Source: Ricordea florida (taxonomy: Eukaryota; Cnidaria; Anthozoa; Corallimorpharia; Ricordeidae). From it: a stretch of DNA of 64,000 nt. How positions within the stretch are numbered: the stretch's first letter is position 1; the number at the start of each line of letters is the position of its first letter. Position numbers and translations under genes: made by a program. The DNA lies in contig OX453282.1 in assembly GCA_949710005.1 (NCBI GenBank), positions 9,055,465 to 9,119,464 of the forward strand, given 5' to 3'. Below the pieces are notes generated by a model, which worked only from the letters and a program-made list of their open reading frames with translations, made no database searches and had not been told where the DNA came from. Below, piece after piece: positions 237 through 63,405 of the stretch.

Positions 237-1278
237 ATGTTACTCAATGATTTCAGAAATAGGTATCCAAAGGCTGATCACAGTCAATTCGTATTTGTGG
301 CCGATCAATATGGTGGTTACATTAGGTGGAAAGTTAATGGGACAACAATCATGTCTTATGATGACCCCACCGGCAAAACATGGACTGAAGACTTATCACC
401 CCGTTTGAAAAGACTGCTATGGAAAGATTTAGGATTGGATGATGCTGCATTGAGTTCATTCCCAAAGAGTTTAACTATGACCAAACGCTATTACCCAATA
501 CCTGCCATTGATTTTGATGACTTCACAAGTAATATCACAAACATGCTTACCTCATTGGATATATACGTGTCCAATACGAAGAAATTCACCGCTAAGATGC
601 GTAATGTTTTCACCTCCCAAGTTGTGACTTTCAAGTTTGGTAAACAGAGTCGAAAATGGTTGAACGCACCCGATATGAATTATTGGCCTCAACAGCTGAA
701 CTTTGCAGTGTGGTGCGCGACCTCTGGATGCGGAATAAGTCCTTTTGAGAGTCTCAACTATCCCAAAGTCGTTAGTAGCTTCATCAAGTTTCATGTGTAT
801 TTCACTATAAGACGAATACTGTATGAATTGAGTCTTCCCTTACCTGATGAGCAACCCTTTGTAATCAATAACAACCCTTACAGCAAAGTCGCTTATCAAC
901 GATTGTGTGCAGAATTTGGCATCTCAAAAAACTCTGACTTTAGATGGAAAGGTGGTCGAAACGGAGGTTTGGGAGATATATTCATAGATTATGGTTCTGG
1001 ATATCATGGAGATGGGGGTGGATATCAAAATGTACATATGGTAAGGAATTACGATGTTGAAGCTGATCAGTGGCCTGGTGAAGGTGGTAAATTTGCTGAT
1101 GATGGAGGTAAGAAAGAAAAAGGTAATCTCATCTCATTTATCCGTAATGATGACTTTGCCGATTATAAATATGCCTGGTTTATACCAACAAGTGGTTATG
1201 GACTCACTAAAGCTGGACTTGGTAGATTGAATAGATCTGCTGAAGCTTTTGTTTACTGCATATTGGGGGCGCAAGTCA
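237..1278 (+). pseudogene. P1 Polinton structural-type ORF, 5' part (split by copia)
   Basis: This is the first 1042 bases of a Polinton ORF of unknown function. The reading frame stays open into the copia LTR, where an artificial tail ends at 1400. The genuine frame resumes after the right-hand target duplication at 5628 and ends at 6121. The two parts sum to 1536 bases, exactly 512 codons, so the insertion itself appears to be the only break. The part here has aromatic-rich N-terminal segments, a Gly/Asp-rich stretch near residues 235-290 and no transmembrane segment. The protein may be a virion or membrane-associated factor because it lies among Polinton genes, but I do not recognise a named family. 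Confidence 0.6.
1274..1278. repeat. copia target-site duplication, left
   Basis: The 5-bp sequence AGTCA precedes the left LTR and recurs at 5623-5627 after the right LTR. This is the 5-bp duplication expected of a copia integrase. Confidence 0.9.
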
Positions 1279-1510
1279 TGTTGCAAGCGTGGCCATTTGT
1301 TCTTCGGTGGATTGAAGACTCCAAGATCAACTGTAACCAAACATTTATTGTTCTTCTTTCACTGACATTCGCACTAACTAGAAGTTACACGTGGCTATGA
1401 AATATATACATGGTGGCTGATGCAATACAGCCTCGATTTAATGTTAACTTGAATGACATTTCCTGTACGTAAATACTTCCGCTTTATGTAAGTTGGGTTT
1501 GCATCCAACA
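1279..1510 (-). repeat. 3' LTR of copia element
   Basis: This 232-bp LTR is the 3' LTR in element orientation. It appears identical to the copy at 5391-5622. It begins TGTTGCAAGC and ends GCATCCAACA on the plus strand. Confidence 0.95.
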
Positions 1511-1519
1511 CCCCCACTC
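1511..1519 (-). other. Polypurine tract of copia element
   Basis: Read on the minus strand, GAGTGGGGG lies directly against the 3' LTR. This is the usual place and composition of the plus-strand DNA primer. Confidence 0.75.
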
Positions 1520-1538
1520 AATCACAACTTTACAACAT

Positions 1539-4500
1539 TTATGGAAGTAGTCTATTAAGTTTAACCCTAGTTACAGGCTTAGTAAAAATGTCTGCAACAT
1601 TATTTTCTGTTGGTACATATGTCAGCTTGAGGTTTCCATTCTGGATCTCTAATCTTAAGAAGTGGTATTTAACATCAATATGCTTTGATCTCTTATGATG
1701 CACAGGATTATTAGCCAGTGCTATTGCCCCTTGATTATCTACATACATGCGAATAACCTCACAAGGGGGACCCACTAGATCAGCTAATAGTTGCCTAAGA
1801 AATTTAGCTTCCTGGGTAGCCATGGCTAATGCTACATACTCAGCTTCACAAGAAGACAGTGCTACCACTGACTGCTTTGCACTCTTCCACGATATCAGTG
1901 AGCTTGCACTACATAACTTAAAAGCATATCCACTGATGCTTCGTCTATCACTGGATGTTGCCCAGTCTGAATCACTGTACCCCTCTAGTTTCACTTCAGG
2001 CCCTTTTACAAACTTTAAGCATCTATCTTGAGTACCCTTTAGATACCTCAGCACTTGTTTTGATATGGCATAATGTGCCTTCATTGGCTTTGATAGATGC
2101 TGAGAAAGATATGTGACTACATAACACAAATCAGGTCTTGTGCATGTCATGAGGTAAATCAAACTTCCAACAATCTCACGATACAAACCTACATTTTCAA
2201 AATTGCTTTCATTAACTGTACTGCCCTTAGTTACACCCAGCTCACATGGGATTGCCTTTGGCTTGCATTCTGACATGTTAAACCGAGACAAAATCTTTTC
2301 TATGTACTGGGTTTGGTTCATTTCAACATACCCATTTCCACACTTGAATTGGATGCCTAGAAACCATGATAGAATACCCAGATCTTTCATTTTGAATTTC
2401 ATCATAAGACATTCTTTAAATTCTTTCAACACATCTGTGTTGCTACCTGCAATAATTATGTCATCAACCCATACAATTAAAATTACTTGACCACTTTCAG
2501 TAGTCCTGACATAAACACAAGGATCCACTAAGGATTGTACAAACTCTTCTTGTGTTAGATAGTCATGTAACATACTGTTCCAGTTTCTCCCACTTTGTTT
2601 CAAGCCATACAATGATTTCTTTAGCTTGCAAACAAGTTTTTGTCCATTGGGCCCTTTTTGTTCATAACCTTCAGGTTGCTCAACATACAACTCACAGTCA
2701 ATAGGTGCATTCAAATAAGCAGTCTTAACATCCATTTGATGGATAACCATACCTTTTTGAACAGCTAATTGCATTAACATTCGAACCGAAGTTAAACGAG
2801 CAGTTGGAGAAAATGTCTCGTGATAGTCTATACCTGGGGCCTGGGAGTAACCCTTTGCAACAAAACGGGCTTTGTACTTTTCCTCTCCATTGGGACCTAA
2901 TTTGATAGTATAAACCCACTTTCCCCCCACTGAAGTCCGACCCTCTGGTAGGGAGGTGAGTTCAAATGTGTCATTATCCCATAGTGAATTTAACTCTTCA
3001 TCCATAGCAACTTTCCACTTCCCAGACTCTGGGGATGTGATGGCACATTCATATGACTGTGGAACATTTCTAGCTGTGTAACAGTAGTCAACTGTAAAAT
3101 TTGCAAAATCATCAATTGCATGATCAAGTTCCTCCCCTGTTGCATAGTCATCAAGGTATTTTGGTCTGACATGCTCCCTAGTGGGGTAACGCTTAACACT
3201 TTCTACCTTAATCTCAGGCTTTTGCATTTCGGGTTCTTTGGACTTGGCTGAATCAGATAACAATTCAACACTTTCCTCTTTATGGTCGAATCTCTCACTG
3301 AATTTGACACATCTGGCTTTCTTGATGGTGTTTTGATCAGGGTAATAAACAAGAAATGCAGGACTGGACCTATCATAACCTATAAAAATGCCTTCCTTAG
3401 CTCGAGCATCTAATTTGGTTTTGTTCTGTACATAAGCGTGACACAATGAACCAAATACATGCATGTTGGACAAATTTGGTTTGGTACCTGTCAAGCACTC
3501 ATAAGGTGTTTTACCTGTTCTGGAATTATAACACCTGTTGCGGATATGTGCTGATGTCATGACAGCATAGGTCCATAACTGTTTAGGTAACTCTGCTTCG
3601 ATTAACAGACACCTTGCCATATCAAAAAGCGATCGCCATGCTCTCTCAGCTGTCCCGTTTTGGTGGGGTGAATAGGGAGCTGTAAGCTCATGTTTGATGT
3701 GGTTATCTAACAATAAGGATTTGAATTGGTCACTAACGTATTCACCCCCATTGTCAGATCGTAATCGTTTGACTGTACCAAAGGGTGCAGTATCAGCCAA
3801 GAACTGCTTCATTGCTGTGATGGCATCACTCTTGTTCTTTAGGAAATATACCCCAAAGGCACCAGAAAAATCGTCCACAAAAACCATTGCATAATTGTGA
3901 CCATCCCTTGACCCTGGTGTGACAGGACCTGCTAAGTCAGTGTGTACTAACTCGAGAGGTGCAGTTGCACGACTATCTGGCTCTCTATTTCGAAACTGTG
4001 ACATCTTTCCCTTTACACAAGTGTCACATTCAGGCTTACCCTTGGGCTTTGTTGTTATTTTCATCCCCTCAACAACATTTTCTAGTTTAAAAACATCATG
4101 CACGTTGCAATGCCCCAATATTTTGTGCCAAGTTTCCGCACTGTGCGCACCATTACTGGAATCGGCATAGTTGAGGTAATACAACTTCCCATATTTCTTC
4201 ATAGCAAATTTGGTGTCACCTGGTGTACTTAGCTCAGCAGAATCTGGTGTCAAGTGTATGGAATTTCCCCTATAAACGGCAGATTGAACAGAAAATATGT
4301 TCTGTTTATAACTAGGTATATATAAAGCGTCTTCAAGAAAGACTTCATAGGGAACACCCCCTACATCATGCAGAGTAACTTGTGCCCTGCCCCTGGCAGA
4401 CACAACACCACATGCCCTACTGCCATCAGCTAACTCTATGTAATGATTTTCGGGTTTGAAATCATCATCAAAATGTAAAAACTTGGACTTATCATTGAGA

Positions 4501-5408
4501 ATATGAGCAGTAGCTCCTGTATCTACTAATAAGGAATTTTCTCTTGTTACGTTAAGAGAGTCTACAGTCACTTTGAACGCAAATGAAGCGCCCCTCTTAT
4601 CGTCACTCACGGTTTTCGCTGTGTCCTTCTTGCGACAAACATCTGTGTTGTGTGTCTTGGACTTGCAGTGTCTGCACCATCGGTGATTAATCTTCTTCCT
4701 TTGTTCCTTTATGCGACATTCACTTGATTTGTGACCAGGTTGACCGCAGGAGTAACATGTTATATGTCCGTTCGATGCTGAATGTTTCTGTTTACAGTTC
4801 ATAACATTGTCCTCTCCAATTTGTGGCGGCATATGAGATCTTTCGGTCTCTTCATAACTCCTAAGGGCTACTTTGAATTCTTGAAACTGAATCTTGTCGT
4901 CGCGCTGCGAAACAATGGCGGAAAAGGTTTTGTATTCCACAGGTAATCCTTTCAGTACCATGGCAATCAAAAGGCTGTCGCTCACTGTCTCCCCGGCGGA
5001 TTTGAGCGATGCAGCTGCTGTTTCAGCACGTAGAACATAATCTGTTATGCATTCGTCTTGGGCTTTCTGCAGTGAAGTTAGTTCTGTATACAATGCAAGA
5101 ACACGTGGTTTGCTTTTTCCCATGTAATGGTTCCTCAATATTTGGAGGGCTCTTCTGCCATCGTCCCTCGCATCCCTCATAATTAAGGACAGGCTTCGAT
5201 CGTCCAGGTACTGGATCAGTTGAGCGAAGGCATCAATGTTCTTTTCCGTTTCTGTGTCATCTAGCTCACCTTCGGCTAGGAGAACATCGTACAACTTGTG
5301 AAGTCTCATAAGTCCCAGGAATTTTACTTCCCAAAGTTCGTATTTCGTAACATCACCGTCGAACATGAGCCTTCTGCTGGGCCCATAACCTGTTGCAAGC
5401 GTGGCCAT
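1539..5408 (-). CDS. Copia Gag-Pol polyprotein
   Basis: The 1289-residue polyprotein makes the capsid, protease, integrase, reverse transcriptase and RNase H. Order seen: a UBN2-type Gag region (1-190), a CCHC zinc knuckle (CYSCGQPGHKSSEC, near 218), a protease active site (LLVDTGATAH, near 292), a GAG-pre-integrase His/Cys region (WHKILGH then CDTC), an integrase core with HTDLAG, RSDNGGEY and QNGTAERAW, a reverse transcriptase with WVDD at the catalytic YxDD position, and RNase H (YSDSDWA, SSCEAEY, HIDVKYH). The frame is intact. The first ATG lies inside the 5' LTR, so Gag begins 18 bases before the LTR end and reads through the primer-binding site. Confidence 0.95.
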   Translation of the reverse strand: MATLATGYGPSRRLMFDGDVTKYELWEVKFLGLMRLHKLYDVLLAEGELDDTETEKNIDAFAQLIQYLDDRSLSLIMRDARDDGRRALQILRNHYMGKSKPRVLALYTELTSLQKAQDECITDYVLRAETAAASLKSAGETVSDSLLIAMVLKGLPVEYKTFSAIVSQRDDKIQFQEFKVALRSYEETERSHMPPQIGEDNVMNCKQKHSASNGHITCYSCGQPGHKSSECRIKEQRKKINHRWCRHCKSKTHNTDVCRKKDTAKTVSDDKRGASFAFKVTVDSLNVTRENSLLVDTGATAHILNDKSKFLHFDDDFKPENHYIELADGSRACGVVSARGRAQVTLHDVGGVPYEVFLEDALYIPSYKQNIFSVQSAVYRGNSIHLTPDSAELSTPGDTKFAMKKYGKLYYLNYADSSNGAHSAETWHKILGHCNVHDVFKLENVVEGMKITTKPKGKPECDTCVKGKMSQFRNREPDSRATAPLELVHTDLAGPVTPGSRDGHNYAMVFVDDFSGAFGVYFLKNKSDAITAMKQFLADTAPFGTVKRLRSDNGGEYVSDQFKSLLLDNHIKHELTAPYSPHQNGTAERAWRSLFDMARCLLIEAELPKQLWTYAVMTSAHIRNRCYNSRTGKTPYECLTGTKPNLSNMHVFGSLCHAYVQNKTKLDARAKEGIFIGYDRSSPAFLVYYPDQNTIKKARCVKFSERFDHKEESVELLSDSAKSKEPEMQKPEIKVESVKRYPTREHVRPKYLDDYATGEELDHAIDDFANFTVDYCYTARNVPQSYECAITSPESGKWKVAMDEELNSLWDNDTFELTSLPEGRTSVGGKWVYTIKLGPNGEEKYKARFVAKGYSQAPGIDYHETFSPTARLTSVRMLMQLAVQKGMVIHQMDVKTAYLNAPIDCELYVEQPEGYEQKGPNGQKLVCKLKKSLYGLKQSGRNWNSMLHDYLTQEEFVQSLVDPCVYVRTTESGQVILIVWVDDIIIAGSNTDVLKEFKECLMMKFKMKDLGILSWFLGIQFKCGNGYVEMNQTQYIEKILSRFNMSECKPKAIPCELGVTKGSTVNESNFENVGLYREIVGSLIYLMTCTRPDLCYVVTYLSQHLSKPMKAHYAISKQVLRYLKGTQDRCLKFVKGPEVKLEGYSDSDWATSSDRRSISGYAFKLCSASSLISWKSAKQSVVALSSCEAEYVALAMATQEAKFLRQLLADLVGPPCEVIRMYVDNQGAIALANNPVHHKRSKHIDVKYHFLRLEIQNGNLKLTYVPTENNVADIFTKPVTRVKLNRLLP
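5375..5390 (-). other. Primer-binding site, half-tRNA initiator-Met type
   Basis: The 16 plus-strand bases flush with the 5' LTR match the anticodon arm of metazoan initiator tRNA-Met (…GGGCCCATAACC), not a tRNA 3' end. Drosophila copia primes from a cleaved 5' half of this tRNA, and this site fits that mode. It lies within the gag frame. The match is from my memory of the tRNA sequence. Confidence 0.75.
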
Positions 5409-5622
5409 TTGTTCTTCGGTGGATTGAAGACTCCAAGATCAACTGTAACCAAACATTTATTGTTCTTCTTTCACTGACATTCGCACTAACTAGAAGTTAC
5501 ACGTGGCTATGAAATATATACATGGTGGCTGATGCAATACAGCCTCGATTTAATGTTAACTTGAATGACATTTCCTGTACGTAAATACTTCCGCTTTATG
5601 TAAGTTGGGTTTGCATCCAACA
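5391..5622 (-). repeat. 5' LTR of copia element
   Basis: This is the promoter-bearing LTR in element orientation, 232 bp. It appears identical to 1279-1510. It contains the gag start codon at 5406-5408. Confidence 0.95.
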
Positions 5623-5627: not shown

Positions 5628-6121
5628 ATACTAGAAATTCGATTGTGGGTAGTGGTGGTGGAGCGATTGAGACTCAACAAGAATTTTTAGCCCTGTTTGA
5701 GAGTAGTGTGATCGAGAATGACATTTCTAGTTCGATCCAAAGATATCAATTAGCTGTACAGGAAGCGAAATTACGGCTTGATTTAGCTATTGCTCCTGGT
5801 GTATGGCTAATGCCTAGTAATATGATAATCAATACAGAGAGTGTGACTGGTTTTAATAACAAACTTATGAAAGCTAGTAGTGATATGAGTTTTGGAGTAA
5901 ATAATTCCATAAACACTGAAGCAAAACAGGTTGGAATAAATCATAACATGGGATCTTCAAAGTTAAAGTTACCGCATAGAACTGAGATGAAACCAAAACC
6001 CTCAACGAAAACAGACTCAACGCAAACAGACTCAATGCGACCAGACTCAACGCAACATGAAAAGAATATATTAGCATTTATAGTTGTAGCTGGTGGATTA
6101 GCATGGTATCTATTTCGGTAG
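5628..6121 (+). pseudogene. P1 Polinton structural-type ORF, 3' part
   Basis: This is the C-terminal third of the ORF begun at 237, displaced by the copia insertion. It opens with a Gly/Ser-rich turn and an amphipathic region. Near 6000 follows a short Thr/Asp/Ser repeat (three related units of about five residues). A hydrophobic segment of about 17 residues at the very end (Ile-Leu-Ala-Phe-Ile-Val-Val…) precedes the stop, so the protein looks tail-anchored. An internal ATG-initiated or GTG-initiated fragment could still be made from about 5645, but no promoter box precedes it. Function unknown. Confidence 0.6.
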
Positions 6122-6310: not shown

Positions 6311-6739
6311 CTAGTGTTTTTGTTGTGTCTCTTGTGTTGTGTGACACTCTGTACATTGTGCCTTCTGTCTGTTGTGTTCGCACATACATAACCTACAAAA
6401 CCATCTTTGTTTTCCATGAATACATATTCCTTTCCCGTTGCATTCTTTACATATATGCCTCCTCCGTTTATGCTCACAAAGACTACCACCGTTGCATTCT
6501 ATACATCGCGTCTTATGTCTGTTGTGTTCACATATTTGAGACCCTCCACAATCCTTACAATAATATTTAACCCTTCCATGAATACACTTATACTTATTAG
6601 TTTTTGTTTTATCTTGTGGTGTTGATGTGAGTGGTTGTGTTAGTGCTTTGATGAGATCGTCTTTACGCAACCGATAATATCCTTTAATACCCTGCTCTTT
6701 GGCAAGGACTTTCAATTGTTTCACTGTTTGGTTCTCCAT
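6311..6739 (-). CDS. P1 protein: Rho_N/SAP-like domain plus Cys/His repeats
   Basis: This 142-residue ORF faces the preceding gene tail to tail and starts close to the P1 terminus. Residues 1-35 form a Rho_N/SAP-like helical domain (VKQLK…AKEQGIKGYYRLRKDDLI), a fold that in known families binds nucleic acid. From residue 50 onward there are about five imperfect units of the form C-x-H-x6-C-x2-C, which should bind zinc. The first domain is nearly the same as the start of the P2 DNA polymerase, and 42 bases are identical. A role in binding element DNA or RNA, or a host partner, is inference. The frame is intact. Confidence 0.75.
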   Translation of the reverse strand: MENQTVKQLKVLAKEQGIKGYYRLRKDDLIKALTQPLTSTPQDKTKTNKYKCIHGRVKYYCKDCGGSQICEHNRHKTRCIECNGGSLCEHKRRRHICKECNGKGICIHGKQRWFCRLCMCEHNRQKAQCTECHTTQETQQKH

Positions 6740-6761
6740 CTATTATTACTACATATGTATT

Positions 6762-6769
6762 TCTTTAAA
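6762..6769 (-). promoter_or_regulatory. TTTAAAGA promoter-like motif
   Basis: On the minus strand the box stands 30 bases before the ATG of the 142-residue ORF. Spacing and sequence match the boxes in P2. Confidence 0.55.
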
Positions 6770-6895
6770 CCTTAAATTTAATTTTATTTTTTGATGCGAT
6801 TCAGTAAAGGTAAAGTTGACATAGGTTGGAGAGGAGGAGGAGTAGGATTTGCGATAGGATCAACTTTTTTGATATCAACTCAATAACAAATTTGT

Positions 6896-6933
6896 AATTT
6901 GCGCTAGAAATTTGCGCTAGAAATTTGCGCTAG
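6896..6933. repeat. Terminal 13-bp repeats of Polinton P1
   Basis: Three head-to-tail copies of AAATTTGCGCTAG (first copy one base short) sit at the P1/transposase junction. TTTGCGCT also occurs in both terminal repeats of the deleted Polinton at 43589-46083, so this is taken as the P1 terminus. The left end of P1 lies outside the window. Confidence 0.55.
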
Positions 6934-6950
6934 GATCGGCCTTATACATC

Positions 6951-7484
6951 TACTACTGTTTCGAAGTATTTATTGAAAAACCCTCTAATCTTCTCGCTCG
7001 AGCTCAAACATTTTCCAACTACAAGCATCATAACACAATCAAAATTTTAATTGGTATTACTCCACAAGGTTCCATCTCTTTTGTTTCTGAATCATGGGGA
7101 GGGCGCACCTCCGATAAGTTTTTAACAGAAAACTGCGGATTTTTGGACAAGCTTGTGCCAGGGGATGTAGTCTTGGCAGACAGGGGCTTCACGGTGGCAG
7201 AGAGTGTGGGCATGAGACAGGCACTACTGGTAATTCCAGCATTTACTAAAGGAAAAAGTCAATTGGACCCAGTAGATGTTGAAAAAACTAGAGGGATTGC
7301 AAATGTTAGGATTCATGTTGAGAGAGTAATTGGATTGTTGCGCAGGAAATATACCATTCTTCAAGGTACTCTTCAAACTGATTTTCTTGTATCTAGTCAG
7401 AATGCCCCACCGGTCATTGACCGCATCATCCGAGTTTGTGCAGCTCTTGTTAATTTATGTCCACCAATATTACCATATGACTAG
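6951..7484 (+). pseudogene. DDE_Tnp_4 transposase, 3' half (IS4/Harbinger-like)
   Basis: An open frame of 178 codons, starting with no ATG right after the P1 terminus, encodes the C-terminal half of a DDE superfamily endonuclease. Recognisable landmarks are the [14 protein letters not shown] block, GITPQG, WGGRTSD, the catalytic-Asp segment LADRGF near 7170, and the ending [13 protein letters not shown]. The 5' half, including the first catalytic Asp, is missing, which fits P1 having inserted into the gene. Transposases of this group cut and rejoin DNA at element ends. Elements of the ISL2EU type also carry a second nuclease-associated ORF; the SWIM ORF at 9024-9701 might be that partner. Confidence 0.75.
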
Positions 7485-53561: not shown

Positions 53562-54440
53562 AAAAAAACCTTTAGATGACTGGTCGCGTTTAGATTTTGA
53601 CACTGTCAATTTAGGAATTCGTTCAGAGAAGCTATAAGGTCTGAGCTTTAGGAACGAATCTTACTCTGTTTTGAACAACAAATGCATAAACGTTTTAGAG
53701 AATTGATCTTGTTGCCGAAGTCGAGAATAAATATACTTTATGTGGAGTTTTGTCATCATTGATAATTTCCTTCTGAAGAATAAGTTGCTGGTTTATGTAA
53801 TCAAGATTGTTATATCTTACCACTCTTGAGGTGCGGAATAAGAATGTGATAAAACCACTCATACAGACCATTTTTCTTCTGACATAGTGCGATCGCGAAA
53901 GTGAACACGCAAAGATAAATTTCCCTAATGACGCCATTCATTTAGGATGTCGCCCAGAAAATAATCAGCTGATAGAAGGCAAATACATTCACACGTTAGC
54001 TTTGATATTAAAGGAATCGCAATCAAGCAGATTTCCTGCTCATTTGGTCAGCTAGCGCTACACTACAAATCGTCAAAGATTAAAAACTGCAGAGATTCAG
54101 GAACAGGAGTTATCAATAAGAATCTATTCTTACATGAAATTACAGAACTGCTTTACATGCAGCTCTGCTCCCATAGGGACTTCACACAAAGAAAAAGGTA
54201 TGCTTCCAACCAAAATTAACAGAAAGGTTTTTATAAACAAGTAGCTGAAATCGCTGAACGATCGGCCGCAAGACAGAATTATTTCAGGTTTTTCTTTGCA
54301 AAGTAATCGAATATCAGAATATTTTCTCAGGAGCGCTCTCTAATTCGCATTCCTTTCTTTTTTGCTGTTTAAGCGCGTTGATCAAATACAATTTCGCTAT
54401 CGCGTTGAACACAACGGGTACAGCAGTAGTATTATAGAGT
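53562..54440 (+). repeat. Displaced 3' flank of GFP copy E
   Basis: After the Helitron end the sequence resumes alignment with GFP 3' flanks: TTTTGACACTGTCAAT near 53600 (as near 32612), then ATAATCAGCTGATAGAAGGC near 53963 (compare 33070), and 54180-54407 (as 37548-37775). It ends at the left terminus of Polinton P2. Confidence 0.75.
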
Positions 54441-54790
54441 AGTTTACCCCGGGATTTTTTTTTATCAGGAATTTTTCAGAAATTTATCAGAAATTTTATT
54501 CCCCGTATTTTTTTTTTTATCAAGATTTTATCAGGGATTTTATCAGGATTCCAGAAACCGATTTTATTCCCCGTATTTTTTTTTATCAGGAATTTATTAG
54601 GGATTTTATCAAGGATTTTATCAAGGAATTTGAAAAAAAGTTAAACCGGATTTTATTATCAACGATTTATTTCTTGATTTTGTTGATACTAATGTGCTTA
54701 GCAACCTGGAATAGTCCGCTAGCAGAAATTAATTTAACCGGATTTTATTATCAAGAATTTTATCAAGGAGTTTTAAAAAATTAATTTGAA
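54441..54790. repeat. P2 terminal region with TTTTATCA-type repeats
   Basis: About ten imperfect copies of a TTTTATCA(A/G)G unit, some with CCCCGTATTTTTTT, fill the terminus. They are probably the terminal inverted repeat with integrase or terminal-protein sites, but the partner end is not in the window. Confidence 0.65.
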
Positions 54791-54796
54791 AAATAG

Positions 54797-54804
54797 TTTA
54801 AAGA
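54797..54804 (+). promoter_or_regulatory. TTTAAAGA promoter-like motif of PolB
   Basis: The box is 28 bases before the PolB ATG, preceded by AG as in several other P2 boxes. Confidence 0.55.
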
Positions 54805-54824
54805 GATAAATATATACCAACAAA

Positions 54825-57800
54825 ATGGACAAGAAATCAGTGAAACAACTGAAAGACATTGCCAAAGAGCAGGGTATTAAAGGATATTATCGGTTGCGTA
54901 GGGATGAACTTATCGAAGCTCTAACACAACCACAAGTCCCTAAAGCTGAACTCATCGAAACACCACTAATAGAAGAGCCGACATCAACACCACGTACTAA
55001 AAAAGCTGAACCAACCAAACGAAGGCCCCCAACACTCCTTATAGTCAGACCCCTCAAAGCATCAGGTACTACCCCTAGAACTAATATCCCCAACCAGCCG
55101 CAAAGACCTATCCCAGCCCCTAGAAAAAATATTCCCAATCAGCCGCAAAGACCTATCCCGGCCCCTAGAAAAAATATTACCAACCAGCAGCAAAGACCAA
55201 AAAATATTGTGTCTAGTTTCATAGATAGTGGAAAGCGGTTAGTGAAAGCCATCACCCAAACAAAGAACAAAACGTTTAATTGGATAAAGAATAAGACATT
55301 GAAAGTGATGGACCGAGTTAAGTCTGTTCGTGAAGAGCTTGCGGATCTCATCATTAAAAATATCTCCGAACTTACTAATAACAGGCTACCCCAACCTAGA
55401 AGACAAACCCTACAAACCCCACAAACCCCACAAACCCCACAAACCCCACAAACCCCACCAAACCAAAATCTAAAAGAGGTTAATGCTGATCTGAATAATG
55501 ACTTATCAAACATGATTTTTAACAAACTCAAACCTGACATAGAGATGCGTTCAAAGATTGTTTACGGTTTTACAGCTAGAATTTATCGCGGGAGTGGAGA
55601 AAAAGTTGATTATGAGAAAACCCTTCGTGGGGAGGGGACTTTTACAAGTTTATCTGAAATAGAGGCTTATATAAAAAGGTGTGAGATCAAAAGGTTAGAT
55701 TTGGAGAATGCAGAAGTGTGGAGCAGCGCGTACCTACCAGCAACAGAGGTTGTTGAAACCCCAGGCGTCTACCAAGGCAGGGTTGAGTTCACTAGGATTG
55801 TGATAAAAGTTATTCACAGCAATGAGCCTTTAATGGGGTGTGGACCCTTACCCGATTGGTTACATAACAAGAAATGCATTCACGCCGTCGATGATAAGAA
55901 CGACAATCTATGTGTCTGGAGGTGTCTAGCTATTTACATGGGGTATCGTGATAAGAAACCTAGACCTGCCGAGGACACTACCAGAAAGGCGCTAAAACTG
56001 GCCAGAGATTTTTACGATAAACCAACACTGAAACCTTCAGAAGTCCGACCAACGAAACTTGTTGATTTTGAAGGCATAGCCAAGATGTTTTCTGTTAACA
56101 TCCGTCTGTATGAACCAAAAGACCAAAAGGTTTGGAAACTTGTGTTCGGTAAAGACCAGTTCAAAAAGAATTTACCATGTATAGACATCGGACTCTATAA
56201 TGGTCACTGTTTCTACATCAAAAATATAGAGATGCTAACTGAACTCTGGGAATGTTCTGGGTGTGAGCAAAGATTTAACAGACATGATAATTACAATAGA
56301 CACGTCACAGAAAAAAGATGTTCGGGAGGAAAAACACAATTGATATGCAAAGGGGAAAAGTTCAAACACATAATGAACAGTTCAGAAAAGGTGTTTTATG
56401 GAGGTAATACCCAATTTAGTTACGCAGGGTGTCGATGGATCGAAGCACAGTCTAAGACTAGAGGCAAACACATTCATCACGCTCTCTGTGGGCATGGAGG
56501 CGAGCGGTGCGTTTTGGAGGGAAAAAAGGAGATTTTGGTTGATGGATACGAGCCGGAGACTAGGACCGTTTTTCAATTCTATGGGTGTAAATGGCACGGC
56601 TGCCCCTGTTCAAGCGACGATGAAAAGAGATACAATGAAACTATTGAAATGGCACAGACGATTAGAAAATTGGGATATAATGTTGTCTCAGTTTGGGAGC
56701 ATGAAAAACCTAAATTAAGTGATATGAGACTTGAAAAGAAATTTACCCCATACCAATATTTTATTGTTTACGATTTTGAAGCATTGCTCCCAAAAATTTC
56801 TCAACAGATGACTGCCGACCTGACTTTCAATACCAAACATATTCCAGTTAGTGTTGCTGTCACCGATAATTTTACAAACGAACCTAACTTTCTTGTAAAC
56901 TCAAACCCAGAAGAGCTTATCAAAGACTTTATTACAGATTTAGAACACCGTCGTAAAGCCATTATCGAAAAAGTTACAAAAGAATACCCGCTTCCTGATG
57001 ATGATTCTATTCCCAAGAACGTTTTAGAGCAGTATAGAAAGTGGTGTAATCAAGTTCCTGTTTTAGGGTTCAATAGTGGAAAGTATGATATCAATATGAT
57101 TAAAGAATATTTTGTAAAGAACATGACCGAGCAAGCTGGAGAGATTTTTGTGGCTAAGAAAGAGAATAACTATATGTTCCTGACAACTGACCATTTTAAA
57201 TTTTTAGATGTAAAGTCCTACTTAGCCCCCGGACTCTCTTTTGATAAGTGGTGTAAAGCAAACAACTGTAAAACACAAAAACTTGTATTTCCTTACGAAT
57301 GGTTGGATAGTTATGAGAAGCTTTCTCACGTAGGCCCTGTGGAATATGAAGACTTTTACTCAAGCCTCCAACAGAAAATCACAGTGTCTCCTCAAGAATA
57401 TGAAGAATTTAAGATCGAATTCCAAAAGCGGGGTTGTGTTACCATGATGCATTGGTTGCGGGAGTATAACCTAGCCGATGTCGTTCCATTTGTGGAAGCT
57501 CTTGAGAAAACTCGACAACAATATTACCCAGATGAAACTGATATGTTAAAAGATGCTGTATCTATCCCCGGTATCTCAATGGTGTATGTGCTCAACAAAG
57601 CAGTAAAAATGAAGAAGAGAGACGAGCCTGCCTTATATGCTCCAGGTAAACCTTGCTTTCATAAATGTGCTAAGACTTGCAGTAAAAAGTTTTGTAAAGA
57701 GTGCTCCAAGGTAAGGAAAGAATGTACCGCATGCCCTAAAAACAAGGCTTATGAACTCTTGAAAACGGGTATGGTTGGAGGGCCCAGTATCGTGTTTACG

Positions 57801-59265: not shown

Positions 59266-60255
59266 TCATTTCAACACAAAATTGGGTGGGAGTTCGGTAT
59301 CTTCCGGTACAACCTGAAGCTCTTCTCTAACGAATGACCTCCTAGGGCCGTCCTCTAGATAATATAAAATAGGCTGATTCTGTGAAACCACACTACTAGA
59401 AATATTGTAAACATTAATACTCCAGATAGAATCCGTAGCACGTCTACGTTCACCACCCTCAAGTTCGCCAGGGGCTAATAGATACCGAACTCTAACCCCC
59501 AGTGGTAGTCTCACCTCATCAAGTCCAACAACTCGCCTATAATTTGGAGGATCAATATCAACCTCTTTCAGTCTTATAGCTTTATCAGGCTCTTTACCAG
59601 TTATTCTCGTTGGTACACTATTCAGAGTTTTCAAAATATCTGGTAATCGTTTCACCCAAACTCTTGATCGATCATCACTAATCATTTCTTGTGCGTATTG
59701 ATGACTAAATAGTTTTTCTGATAATGTTCTATTTGCTCTTTCAACAAATGCTTGAGCTCTATGGTTTCCAGCTTCAGACCGTTGTATGGTTACATTATGT
59801 TTTTCCATAAGTTTTGTTACATCACCCATAAATTCTCTTCCAGGATCAACAATTAATGTTTTAGGATATTTTAACTTTCTGGAGTATATTTTTGTTAAAG
59901 CTTTGGATACCTCATTACTTTCTTTTGAGGTTAGTGGTTCAGCATCTTTATATCTCGAGGCAATATCAATCACAACCAGAGCATATCGATATGTCTTTCT
60001 TCCCACTCTGTCATGTGGTAAAAATAATAAATCCGCTTGGTGAATCTGATTAGGCTTTTCAACATTCCAATGAGGTCTGGGGATATATTTTGGAGCTGGT
60101 AGATAGATTTGCCACAGCGCCTGTTTCTCAAGCCATCGTTTAGCCTCATCTTCACTAACTTTTGCTTTTTCAGCTAATTTTGGAATGGCAGAATACCCTT
60201 TCCAATATCCATAAGTGGAATAATATATTTTTGTTAGCATGTTTTCGTTACTCAT
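59266..60255 (-). CDS. Polinton integrase (rve/DDE family)
   Basis: The 329-residue integrase faces PolB tail to tail with one base between the PolB frame's natural end and its stop. The catalytic residues lie in HQADLLFLP (Asp, near 95), IVDPGREF (Asp, near 154) and RAQAFVERANRTL (Glu, near 190), spaced as in retroviral-type integrases. An N-terminal helical region precedes them (a zinc-binding HHCC is not evident). The C-terminal 90 residues with RVRYLL and a Trp/Tyr-rich tail resemble the SH3/chromodomain-type ends of Polinton integrases. It inserts the linear element DNA with 6-bp duplications. The frame is intact. Confidence 0.92.
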   Translation of the reverse strand: MSNENMLTKIYYSTYGYWKGYSAIPKLAEKAKVSEDEAKRWLEKQALWQIYLPAPKYIPRPHWNVEKPNQIHQADLLFLPHDRVGRKTYRYALVVIDIASRYKDAEPLTSKESNEVSKALTKIYSRKLKYPKTLIVDPGREFMGDVTKLMEKHNVTIQRSEAGNHRAQAFVERANRTLSEKLFSHQYAQEMISDDRSRVWVKRLPDILKTLNSVPTRITGKEPDKAIRLKEVDIDPPNYRRVVGLDEVRLPLGVRVRYLLAPGELEGGERRRATDSIWSINVYNISSSVVSQNQPILYYLEDGPRRSFVREELQVVPEDTELPPNFVLK

Positions 60256-60283
60256 TTAAAGAATAATCATACTATCTTTTAAA
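60255..60283. promoter_or_regulatory. Divergent promoter between integrase and capsid-like gene
   Basis: Only 35 bases separate the two start codons. TTTAAAGA at 60255-60262 (plus) is 36 bases before the capsid-like ATG. A TTTTAAAAGAT box (about 60273-60283, minus) is about 20-28 bases before the integrase ATG. The plus-strand box overlaps the integrase start codon. Confidence 0.55.
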
Positions 60284-60290
60284 ATAAAAC

Positions 60291-61529
60291 ATGTCACAAG
60301 CTATATCTGAAGAAATTAACCCAAACAGGATTCCAATAGAGCCCCTCGGTTTGAAAGCGGAATCATCACTGAATCGAATTACACTCAATCCCTCATCCGC
60401 TAATCCTGAAGAAACCTTGTATATAAATATTCCAAAACTTTCTGAGAATGTAGTGATTGTACCAGGAAGTGTATCTCTACTATTTGACTTGACTGTTGAA
60501 GGTCATGCTAACAACACCCTTGTGAATAACGTAGGCAGTAACCTTGTATCCAGACTTAGGGTTATTTTTGGTGGAGAAACACTACAGGATACTCAAAGAT
60601 ACGATCTCTTTCAAACATACCATGACTTATACTTAACAGCTGAAGATCGTGAGGATGGAATAAAACAAGGTATTTCTTCTGTAAACATGAGGAAGCTTAG
60701 GACAAATGCGGGTGATAAGGTAACATCAGGAAATGATAAGGAAGTAGCTCTTGCGACAGTATACAAAACCAAGTACCGTATCCCACTCAACCATCCTATT
60801 CTCAGCAAGCATGGGGCTTTCTATCCAAAGGCGTTACCTCATCCACTAATCTTTGAGATTACACTGGCCCCAGTTTCAGATATTGTTGTTTATTCTGACA
60901 AGACCAAGACTCCAAATTACAAAATCGCAAACCTTGAGTTGGAATATTCTTGTATCTCAAGTGAATACTTAGCTAGTGAGGCTCAGTCAGCTTATCAGGT
61001 TGGTAAAGGATTCTTTTACGAGAATGTACTTCTACACAAAACTTTTGAAATCTCCAAACCTAATGATAGTTACATAAACGAGAACATTAATATACCTAGG
61101 AGATCAATGACAGGGATATTGTGCTTGTTCACAGAGAGATACGTAGGAGGAGCACGAGATTCTGAAAAGTTTGTAAATCCAAATATTACATCAATCAAGA
61201 TTAACGTTGACGGCATACCAAACCGTCTCTACTCCAAGGGAATGGAACCGTCAGACTTCTGGGATTCGGTAAAGAAGCGTTTCGGTAGAGAGGGTGTCAA
61301 GCTAAATGATTTTTATGCAGACAAGTTTGCTATATGGATTGACTTGAGAACTCACCCTGACAATAGTATTCATGGAGGAGGACTGGCCTTGAACAACACA
61401 CGAGATGGAGTAAAACTAGAAATGAACAGAAAAGTTGGAGGAACAGGAAATATCACCTGTCACATGTTCGTGGTAGCCGATGCGTTGATGGAGATCATGA
61501 ATTCAAACTTAAGATCAATTATGTATTAG
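60291..61529 (+). CDS. Capsid-like protein of P2 (probable double jelly-roll)
   Basis: This 412-residue protein has a beta-rich pattern without membrane segments. The place between integrase and packaging ATPase is where Polintons carry their major capsid protein, a double jelly-roll fold. Recognisable blocks are GLKAESSLNRITLNPSSANP at 20-40, RLRVIFGGETLQ near 85-96, and DFWDSVKKRFG near 320. A decayed paralogue lies at 44040-45640. I cannot verify the fold from sequence alone; a minor structural protein is the alternative. The frame is intact. Confidence 0.75.
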   Translation: MSQAISEEINPNRIPIEPLGLKAESSLNRITLNPSSANPEETLYINIPKLSENVVIVPGSVSLLFDLTVEGHANNTLVNNVGSNLVSRLRVIFGGETLQDTQRYDLFQTYHDLYLTAEDREDGIKQGISSVNMRKLRTNAGDKVTSGNDKEVALATVYKTKYRIPLNHPILSKHGAFYPKALPHPLIFEITLAPVSDIVVYSDKTKTPNYKIANLELEYSCISSEYLASEAQSAYQVGKGFFYENVLLHKTFEISKPNDSYINENINIPRRSMTGILCLFTERYVGGARDSEKFVNPNITSIKINVDGIPNRLYSKGMEPSDFWDSVKKRFGREGVKLNDFYADKFAIWIDLRTHPDNSIHGGGLALNNTRDGVKLEMNRKVGGTGNITCHMFVVADALMEIMNSNLRSIMY

Positions 61530-61537
61530 TTAAAAGT

Positions 61538-62164
61538 ATGGAAGAATTACGAGATAAAGTTCCTTTTCATTGCATTATAACTGGGCCAACAAATTGTGGA
61601 AAGACAAAGTACCTCACGGATCAGCTAAGAGGACCATTCCAAAAAGTTTTTGAATACATTGTTCTCATATGTCCGACTTATGCTAAAAATAAAACCTATC
61701 ATAAATTTGCTCACGGAGATAAACGTTTCTTAGTATTATCACCAGATGCTAGTAACAGCGATGAGATTAACGAGTTATTAAATGATTGTCAAACTTTGTT
61801 CTCTGGTACAAATACACTAATAATTTTAGATGACTGTGCTGTATCGAAAGATCTAAAGAAACGCTCGAACAAGTTTATAGATCTAGCATTCTCTGGAAGA
61901 CATCACGGATTATCAGTTTGGGTTCTCACTCAGCAATTAACATCCATAGCAAAACCATTCCGTGAAAATGTAGCTTGTGTGGTTACATTCCATAATCCAT
62001 CACAAAAGGGGGTGAAGATGCTTTTCGAAGATTATGGAGGTAATTTAGACTCTGAAACTCGTAAAAAGTTTGTAGAAATGTTGAAAACCGAAAAATATTC
62101 GAGACTCTGTTTGTGTTTACGTTATCCATTCCAATGTTATTTAGAGATTCCCGCGGTGATTTAA
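61538..62164 (+). CDS. Genome-packaging ATPase (A32/FtsK-HerA type)
   Basis: The 208-residue ATPase has Walker A ITGPTNCGKTKY near residue 13-24 and Walker B TLIILDDCA near 103-111. SGRHHGLSVWVLTQQLTS near 128-145 carries the conserved sensor-type Gln. This matches the A32-like ATPases of Polintons, adintoviruses and large DNA viruses, which drive DNA into capsids. It starts only 8 bases after the capsid-like stop and has a weak A/T box (TTAAAAGT) just before the ATG, so it may be translated from the same transcript. Confidence 0.92.
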   Translation: MEELRDKVPFHCIITGPTNCGKTKYLTDQLRGPFQKVFEYIVLICPTYAKNKTYHKFAHGDKRFLVLSPDASNSDEINELLNDCQTLFSGTNTLIILDDCAVSKDLKKRSNKFIDLAFSGRHHGLSVWVLTQQLTSIAKPFRENVACVVTFHNPSQKGVKMLFEDYGGNLDSETRKKFVEMLKTEKYSRLCLCLRYPFQCYLEIPAVI

Positions 62165-62168
62165 AAGA
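62160..62168 (+). promoter_or_regulatory. TTTAAAAGA promoter-like motif
   Basis: It overlaps the ATPase stop codon and is 36 bases before the ATG at 62196. Confidence 0.5.
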
Positions 62169-62195
62169 ATCTATGTATTATTAAAAAATTAAAAG

Positions 62196-62681
62196 ATGAC
62201 AAGCGTTGAAGATTTTATTGAAGAACAGCCAGAGGTAAAAGATGAGACCAAAGATAATGATGTTGAAATCAAACAAGAATCACTAGCTATTCTCGCATCT
62301 CTTGGGACCACAAAGGAATATTTAGGTGATGAGATGAGTCTAGGTGATATCAAGAAACTCAAGGCAAAAGATGTAGAAAAATATTATAATCGATACCAGG
62401 CAGTATTAGGTAAGCAAGTTAGTAGTGGATTAGTAGAGTCAGCTCTTGAAGCAGCTTCTAATATCATTTCTTACGTGGTTCCTGTAGATGACACTGAAGC
62501 GCTTAGCAAAGACTTACAGAACGATGAGTTGGTTAAGCGTGAACTCACAAATTTTATAGGTCTATTGGTATTAAAATGTGGAAGATTGGTTGCACTTGCT
62601 AGTGGACTATTCCAGGTTGCTAAGCACATTAAAATCAACAAAACTGAGCAGACTAATGAGCAGGCTACCGAACAAAACTGA
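62196..62681 (+). CDS. P2 protein, 161 aa, unknown
   Basis: Residues 1-45 are acidic. A helical middle (MSLGDIKKLKAKDVEKYYNR) follows, then a mildly hydrophobic C-terminal half near 115-145 (ELTNFIGLLVLKCGRLVALA) that may touch a membrane, and a Gln/Glu/Thr-rich tail. It belongs to the string of P2 genes with their own A/T boxes. I do not recognise the family. Proteins at this place in Polintons are often virion or membrane components, which is only inference here. Confidence 0.7.
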   Translation: MTSVEDFIEEQPEVKDETKDNDVEIKQESLAILASLGTTKEYLGDEMSLGDIKKLKAKDVEKYYNRYQAVLGKQVSSGLVESALEAASNIISYVVPVDDTEALSKDLQNDELVKRELTNFIGLLVLKCGRLVALASGLFQVAKHIKINKTEQTNEQATEQN

Positions 62682-62689
62682 TGATATGA

Positions 62690-62697
62690 TTTAAAGA
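62690..62697 (+). promoter_or_regulatory. TTTAAAGA promoter-like motif
   Basis: 34 bases before the ATG at 62724; the box continues as TTTAAAGATT. Confidence 0.55.
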
Positions 62698-62723
62698 TTA
62701 TTTACTATGGGAAATAAATAATC

Positions 62724-63163: not shown

Positions 63164-63382
63164 ATGTCAACTGAAAACAAACTTGTGAAAACTGTTACCG
63201 ATTCAGCCGTAATTATCGGATTGGCTGCCGGTGTTGGATATGTAGCTAAAAAGGCTATGAAAGAATCATTTATAAACGATCCCTCCTCAAGTATTACAAA
63301 CTATGCTAAATGGGTCGCTGTCCTATCCGGTAGTATGTACCTAAAAACTTATTTAGAAGATCAAAAGATTTTGCCAACTTAA
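63164..63382 (+). CDS. P2 small membrane protein, 72 aa
   Basis: The protein has two hydrophobic stretches, near 12-27 (DSAVIIGLAAGVGYVA) and 46-60 (AKWVAVLSGSMYL), with a polar loop between and a short charged tail. It could be a hairpin membrane protein. The intact frame, own A/T box and tight spacing support a real gene. Family not recognised. Confidence 0.65.
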   Translation: MSTENKLVKTVTDSAVIIGLAAGVGYVAKKAMKESFINDPSSSITNYAKWVAVLSGSMYLKTYLEDQKILPT

Positions 63383-63386
63383 AGAT
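63378..63386 (+). promoter_or_regulatory. CTTAAAGAT promoter-like motif
   Basis: Overlaps the stop region of the 72-aa gene and is 27 bases before the ATG at 63406. Confidence 0.5.
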
Positions 63387-63405
63387 TTTACATATTGATC
63401 AATAA

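Follow-up and report, generated by a model that had tools for sequence, protein, structure and literature searches.

Two element ends in the window

The window is the whole stretch of DNA that was analysed, 64,000 nt of a 538-Mb, 48-contig assembly (C11:9055465-9119464). It contains the right end of one element, P1, which extends from 9044.6 kb to 9062.4 kb of C11, and the left part of a second, P2, whose right-end start codon lies at 9123.8 kb (Table 1). In each case a gene starts within the terminal inverted repeat (TIR) and runs inward: a PolB gene in P2, and a gene for a short Cys/His-repeat protein in P1. The rve integrase and A32-like packaging ATPase that mark a Polinton/Maverick were both identified, for P2 only, and a Pfam search for capsid genes gave a weak Capsid_N match at 60291-61529, under the cut-off (E 0.026). 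The P2 PolB ORF stops short of the C-terminal part present in its relatives. From 54425 to 54753 the P2 repeat has zero mismatches and one gap relative to the far end of the element, and from 54753 to 54922 the two copies are about 85% alike; between the right repeat of P1 and its counterpart at the left end of that element, outside the window (L070), identity is 97.5%.

A copia-type LTR retrotransposon is found inside P1 (window 1267-5622; a 1289-aa ORF, and 244-bp LTRs that are 98% alike), between the ORFs at 237-1400 and 5645-6121. P1 and a further element, E11, which together fall within C11:9008.4-9063.0 kb (L068-L071), have common outer flanks and a common target duplication. Because these flanks and the 5-bp duplication are identical, we consider E11 and P1 to be segmental duplicates of one insertion, and the copia insertion would explain why P1 is longer than E11.

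Table 1. Features of the P1 and P2 termini and associated genes (window coordinates).
Feature	Position	Strand	Remarks
P1 Cys/His-repeat (CxHxR...CxxC) protein, 142 aa	6311..6739	-	start within P1 TIR
Rho_N domain of P1 Cys/His protein, residues 2-34	6638..6736	-	Pfam PF07498 E 7.6e-9
P1 right TIR, begins AGTAG	6642..6954	-	reaches 97 nt into coding sequence
TTTAAAGA promoter-like motif, P1	6762..6769	-	30 nt upstream of Cys/His start codon
P1 target-site duplication (TSD), right copy, 5 bp	6955..6959	.	
P2 TSD, left copy, 5 bp	54420..54424	.	identical 5 bases at far end of P2
P2 left TIR, begins AGTAG	54425..54922	+	vs P2 right end: 500 columns, 93.8%
TTTAAAGA promoter-like motif, P2	54797..54804	+	28 nt upstream of PolB start codon
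P2 PolB ORF, 1397 aa	54825..59018	+	start within TIR; family B polymerase motifs in order
Rho_N domain of P2 PolB, residues 3-38	54831..54938	+	Pfam PF07498 E 4.3e-9
42-base identity	54859..54900	+	to reverse complement of 6664-6705
P2 rve integrase	59266..60255	-	Pfam rve E 1.6e-9
P2 A32-like packaging ATPase	61538..62164	+	Pfam Pox_A32 E 9.7e-13
TTTAAA/CTTAAAGA upstream regions	60211-60335, 62116-62195, 62644-62723, 63326-63405		

The initial annotation of this DNA had pointed to an inverted identity between the beginnings of these two ORFs, and the 42 bases in question do match exactly. Around them extends a longer inverted match of 109 nt (arms 6631-6739 and 54825-54933; 95/109 positions, or 87%, identical), whose first base is in both ORFs the first base of the ATG and which runs to codon 36. 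The flanks had been described as different, which holds for their overall identity over 60 nt (35% on the upstream side, 28% on the downstream side) and not for 13 matching bases in the linker or for an AT-rich stretch of the leader, both of which are common to the two loci. Both N-termini had been called Rho_N/SAP-like, and both match PF07498 above its cut-off (36.6 and 35.8 bits versus 24.9).

Terminal repeats cross the start codon in paired ends across the genome

A genome search with the start of P1 returned at least 44 matches; among these best candidates, 26 form 13 inward-facing pairs by our own count, and the other 18 are unpaired within that list. Taking three probes and the exact 42-mer together, we counted 43 different inward-facing pairs from the lists of matches, mostly 9-16 kb apart. 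Eighteen elements were read at both ends, 14 of them in a first set, for which the left end of P2 came from the window, and four drawn from more distant families; all are from one genome, and they amount to 17 independent elements given the duplication of E11 and P1.

In all 18, the TIR spans a leader of approximately 175-400 nt, the start-codon site, and coding sequence up to a boundary that ranges from +43 to +308, with the coding part in one common frame at both ends and 14 to 103 residues in common. The genes beyond the repeat are PolB at one end and the Cys/His protein at the other in 17 of the 18 elements: 13 of the 14 in the first set were assigned by tblastn, and all four of the further elements from their reading frames, two of them also by a PolB search. 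The remaining case is E5, where tblastn detected neither gene within 1.6 kb of the end opposite the Cys/His gene. The repeat of the C10 element aligns over 469 columns with one gap and zero mismatches, so that both of its ends encode the same 71 residues. That of the F2 pair covers just 14 codons, past which the Rho_N domains of the two ends are different, and in E9 the start codon has been lost at one end. Exact 5-bp TSDs lie beside the AGTAG starts in 13 of the 18 elements (12 of them independent), that of F2 being AT-rich and possibly due to chance, and no exact 5-bp TSD was found in E3, E8, C9F3, C10, or C5. We also observed one element with many tandem leader copies at both ends (C8:29268.1-29284.4 kb).

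P1 and P2 themselves are alike in layout, with PolB at one end, the Cys/His protein at the other, and Rho_N at the start of both. The far end of P1 (L070) starts a PolB with Rho_N, and the far end of P2 (L072) starts a Cys/His protein with Rho_N whose sequence is the same as that of a database protein, P0002. The suggestion that one domain, inverted, stands at either end of each Polinton is thus borne out in both elements, as it is by the inward-facing pairs at large.

A promoter-like motif in the repeat

Of 54 terminal-gene starts, 40 have the word TTTAAAG[AGT] at -27 to -31, and CTTAAAG is seen by eye in 11 more; both ends of each element enter this count, so the starts are not independent. 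Among random 60-mers from the window, TTTAAAG[AGT] is found in 0.8%. Of the six other P2 genes, four have TTTAAA 28-36 nt upstream and a fifth has, by eye, CTTAAAGA; no similar word was seen upstream of the P2 ATPase gene. This may be a candidate element-wide promoter motif, which the repeat supplies to both terminal genes. The initial annotation had suggested that the terminus may be a module of promoter, start codon, and nucleic-acid-binding domain that is attached to different proteins at the two ends. The start codon and the domain on different proteins are there to be read, and for the promoter it is the conserved motif that speaks.

The proteins that carry Rho_N

As there is no Pfam polymerase match, the PolB assignment is motif-based: DFEA, FNSxxYD, DANSLY, KxxxNSxYG, and DTDS, which we take to be family B DNA polymerase motifs, occur in order in P0001, and each is present in 83-121 of 121 proteins. 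Sequence searches of Pfam, PHROGs, NCBIfam, and PDB left the polymerase part unnamed, and the structural model of PolB residues 601-1397 is poor (mean pLDDT 50), its best PDB matches being B-family polymerases (E 5e-3). Ahead of the exonuclease motif, residues ~480-648 of P0001 show two weak resemblances, one to Vsr endonuclease at profile positions 480-574 (E 0.05 against PDB) and one to phage proteins at residues 560-648 (E 1e-5 by tblastn).

Querying with the whole of PolB gave 450 relatives, of which the 120 listed were used; PolB region 1-64 as query gave zero matches at E 0.001. Rho_N stands at the N-terminus of 59 of the 120 and is missing from 61, many of which begin (by eye) with what comes after the Rho_N linker, while a few are shorter proteins. 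P0121, a prediction from Nematostella vectensis that is 72% identical over 76% of the PolB query, starts with Rho_N. Within the genome, the domain is present in 24 of 30 PolB copies, and in the other six the longest ORF begins further downstream. Given its presence on part of the PolB relatives, Rho_N is an optional head on PolB. Among 117 Cys/His relatives, Rho_N was found in 22, using a profile built from members of the same set.

The best of five AlphaFold models of the Cys/His protein has a mean pLDDT of 84 (the other four, 64-70). In it, the helices of the Rho_N domain match those at the N-terminus of transcription factor Rho to within 0.9 A over 32 residues, with a Foldseek E of 2.4 that is weak because the match is short. 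We infer that Rho_N most likely binds nucleic acid in both proteins, in PolB at the terminus during initiation, and it might perhaps bring both proteins to the element's own ends. Two Rho_N-like domains are seen in some PolB proteins (L081, L084, L099, L103) and, by eye, in F2-family Cys/His proteins (L105-L109). The linkers after Rho_N (for example, at window 55070-55190) contain proline-rich RPIPAPRKNIPNQPQ tandem units, whose number varies among PolB and Cys/His proteins and which sometimes lie inside the repeat.

The CxHxR...CxxC repeat itself is the same as that of known phage and eukaryotic proteins, a number of which also have GIY-YIG or HNH-like parts, but here it is joined to an N-terminal Rho_N and located at a Polinton end. 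Its occurrence in HNH-like viral-contig proteins (L003, L008; by eye) and GIY-YIG proteins (P0011, P0017) hints that the Cys/His protein may be a nuclease-associated DNA binder. In IMG/VR, queries with the Cys/His protein alone and with PolB found no relative. Alignment A1 led to 39 loci there, with frames at the match listed for 18; among the frames shown at these 18 loci (the matching frame is absent for L001, L005, L006, L013, L014, and others), none joins Rho_N to Cys/His repeats. Instead, Cys/His repeats appear in HNH-like or other proteins and Rho_N in phage-type proteins.

Likeness between the two ends of an element

To compare ends, we took as leader the 170 nt before the ATG and as coding part the first 96 coding nucleotides, with E11-P1 cross pairs left out. 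Leader identity is 0.990 within elements versus 0.827 between elements (n=360 pairs), and the nearest leader is that of the element's own partner end at 28 of 28 ends. For the coding part the corresponding identities are 0.960 and 0.905, and its nearest counterpart is the partner at only 16 of 28 ends, a sign that homogenisation commonly ends within the domain or ahead of it. Mismatches between partner ends are four times as frequent in the coding part as in the leader (42/1230 versus 25/3125; Fisher p 4e-9; E11 left out), and the two domain copies differ at 5-15 of ~96 positions in 5 of 14 elements. The position of the change varies from element to element. P2 has no mismatch (one gap) from -400 to -72 and 26 mismatches from -71 to +95, and its domain copies are alike at 24/32 residues; since the well-homogenised part of its repeat stops 72 nt before the ATG, P2 is among the less homogenised cases. 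Six of eight mismatches in P1 lie from +58 inward, those of E9 begin at +69, start codon aside, and the leader of E10 contains two, with nine more from +21 on.

Where mismatches are numerous, they lie at the inner edge. The simplest reading is that copying keeps the outer part alike while the inner limit moves, and we infer that this copying takes place between the two ends of one element. A comparable process has been deduced for virophages, where, according to the available portion of the source, the TIRs of truncated genomes must have regenerated (PMC8547959).

We consider it likely that TIRs crossing the start codon, kept alike by end-to-end copying, give PolB and the Cys/His protein one shared N-terminus. 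In this view, each TIR carries the AGTAG terminus and a leader that includes a TTTAAAGA-type promoter-like motif, followed by the start codon and the Rho_N (SAP-like) domain, whole or in part; beyond the repeat, the frame leads into the DNA polymerase at one end and the Cys/His-repeat protein at the other. Replication or repair of the linear element would copy one end onto the other, so that both proteins acquire and retain the same N-terminus, and the inner limit of the repeat would drift, the domain copies diverging when it retreats.

How far the sameness of the domain itself matters is a separate question, and it is quite possible, though we lean the other way, that the boundary drifts freely into coding sequence as a by-product, with the shared promoter and terminus being what counts and domain sameness unselected. 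The wide range of the boundary fits this, as do the mismatches, which in P2 set in upstream of the ATG and in E9, E10, and P1 fall mostly within coding sequence, the divergence of the domain copies in P2 and the F2 family, and the 61 listed PolB relatives without a Rho_N match. Strict sameness of the domain is evidently not required, given the divergence in P2 and F2, the 5 of 14 elements in which the copies differ, and the 12 of 28 ends whose nearest coding part is not the partner's. However, both proteins keep Rho_N even where the repeat ends inside the domain and leaves it uncovered, most PolB copies in the genome carry it (and the six others are those with a downstream ORF start), and the frame is preserved in all 18 elements. 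Between elements, pS is 0.193 and pN 0.078, a pN/pS of 0.40 (265 pairs, excluding E11 as well as two damaged ends). Differences at codon positions 1/2/3 number 176/88/311 at PolB ends and 165/76/254 at Cys/His ends, a third-position excess that also speaks for coding constraint (11 elements; E5, E9, and E11 left out).

Origin of the identity between P1 and P2

Recombination between elements, with ends as hot spots, might have produced the P1-P2 identity in place of copying between ends, and we think this unlikely. The coding parts at ends of E5, E9, E10, E11, P1, and P2 are nearest to other elements, as such exchange would predict (these are the 12 ends just mentioned), but the leaders are without exception nearest to their own partner, and a 42-base run calls for no special event: runs of at least 42 bases occur in 68 of 312 between-element end pairs, with a median run of 32 (E11 left out). 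As such runs are ordinary among relatives, the P1/P2 identity is a family resemblance under constraint; the identity noted at the outset exists, and what is special is how the two ends of a single element relate to each other, not how P1 relates to P2.

The exact 42-mer has 12 copies in 538 Mb in a whole-genome search, versus 0 for a reversed-pattern control. Eight of these make up four inverted pairs with spacings of 12.5-14.3 kb, two more are the copies in the window, one (C14) is paired with a match from the P1-start search, and for the last (C16) no partner was seen. The possibility that many unrelated host genes contain the same bases is thus not what was found, 11 of the 12 copies lying at ends with an identified partner. 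An origin in chance, a host-gene domain, or an assembly artefact has a negligible probability: the unpartnered C16 copy and the 18 unpaired matches in the P1-start list would suit it, but the expected number of inverted 42-mers in the window is ~7e-16, the reversed control is empty, different flanks with matching 5-bp duplications surround 13 of the 18 elements, and the inner genes differ at the two ends.

Discussion

It is well known that Polintons have inverted repeats, which, to our knowledge, are usually regarded as non-coding termini. What stands out here, as read from sequence, is that a Polinton TIR crosses the start codon, so that two predicted terminal proteins share an N-terminal domain. 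Partial parallels exist elsewhere. In herpes simplex virus, US1 and US12 are two genes reading out of inverted repeats, with a common promoter and 5' leader in the repeat; there the shared part is a non-coding leader, whereas in these Polintons it extends over the start codon and into a folded domain. In the inverted repeats of poxviruses and plastids, the boundary may lie inside a gene, its drift puts the 5' part at both ends, and copying keeps the two alike; the second copy is usually a truncated pseudogene, whereas here both copies head different long ORFs.

The elements resemble Polintons/Mavericks and their adintovirus-like relatives, as the available portion of PMC8097293 describes them, in PolB, rve integrase, A32-like ATPase, and AGT-type termini, and in having TIRs of hundreds of bases and short TSDs; they differ in that both terminal genes have their N-terminal domain encoded within the TIR. 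TSDs are 6 bp in vertebrate Mavericks (PMC8097293, available portion) versus 5 bp in the 13 of 18 elements here with an exact one, and the accessible text of PMC12220804 gives 5-6 bp for Polinton-like viruses. The available portions of PMC8097293, PMC8547959, and PMC12220804 give TIR lengths and make no mention of coding TIRs. Likewise, in a literature comparison that included the accessible parts of PMC12721341 and PMC8363768, and outside of which the founding Polinton, Maverick, and adintovirus papers stand, we found no statement of protein-coding Polinton TIRs and nothing for a Polinton with a SAP domain or Rho termination factor.

An attractive idea, which on present sequence evidence we hold to be rather doubtful, is that the terminal repeat may be a self-contained cassette comprising the terminus as a site, the promoter, the start codon, and a domain able to read that site. 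If so, copying of the cassette would hold the site and its reader in step, both for the polymerase and for the Cys/His protein that partners it, and the cassette could cap new genes with the same DNA-binding head.

More broadly, coding TIRs mean that homogenisation of the ends, a by-product of replication, would drive concerted protein evolution and domain sharing. A repeat boundary that moves in and out of coding sequence with the frame kept would offer a natural series for how linear elements copy their ends, and the shared domain a hypothesis, open to experiment, on the way in which the polymerase locates its origin.
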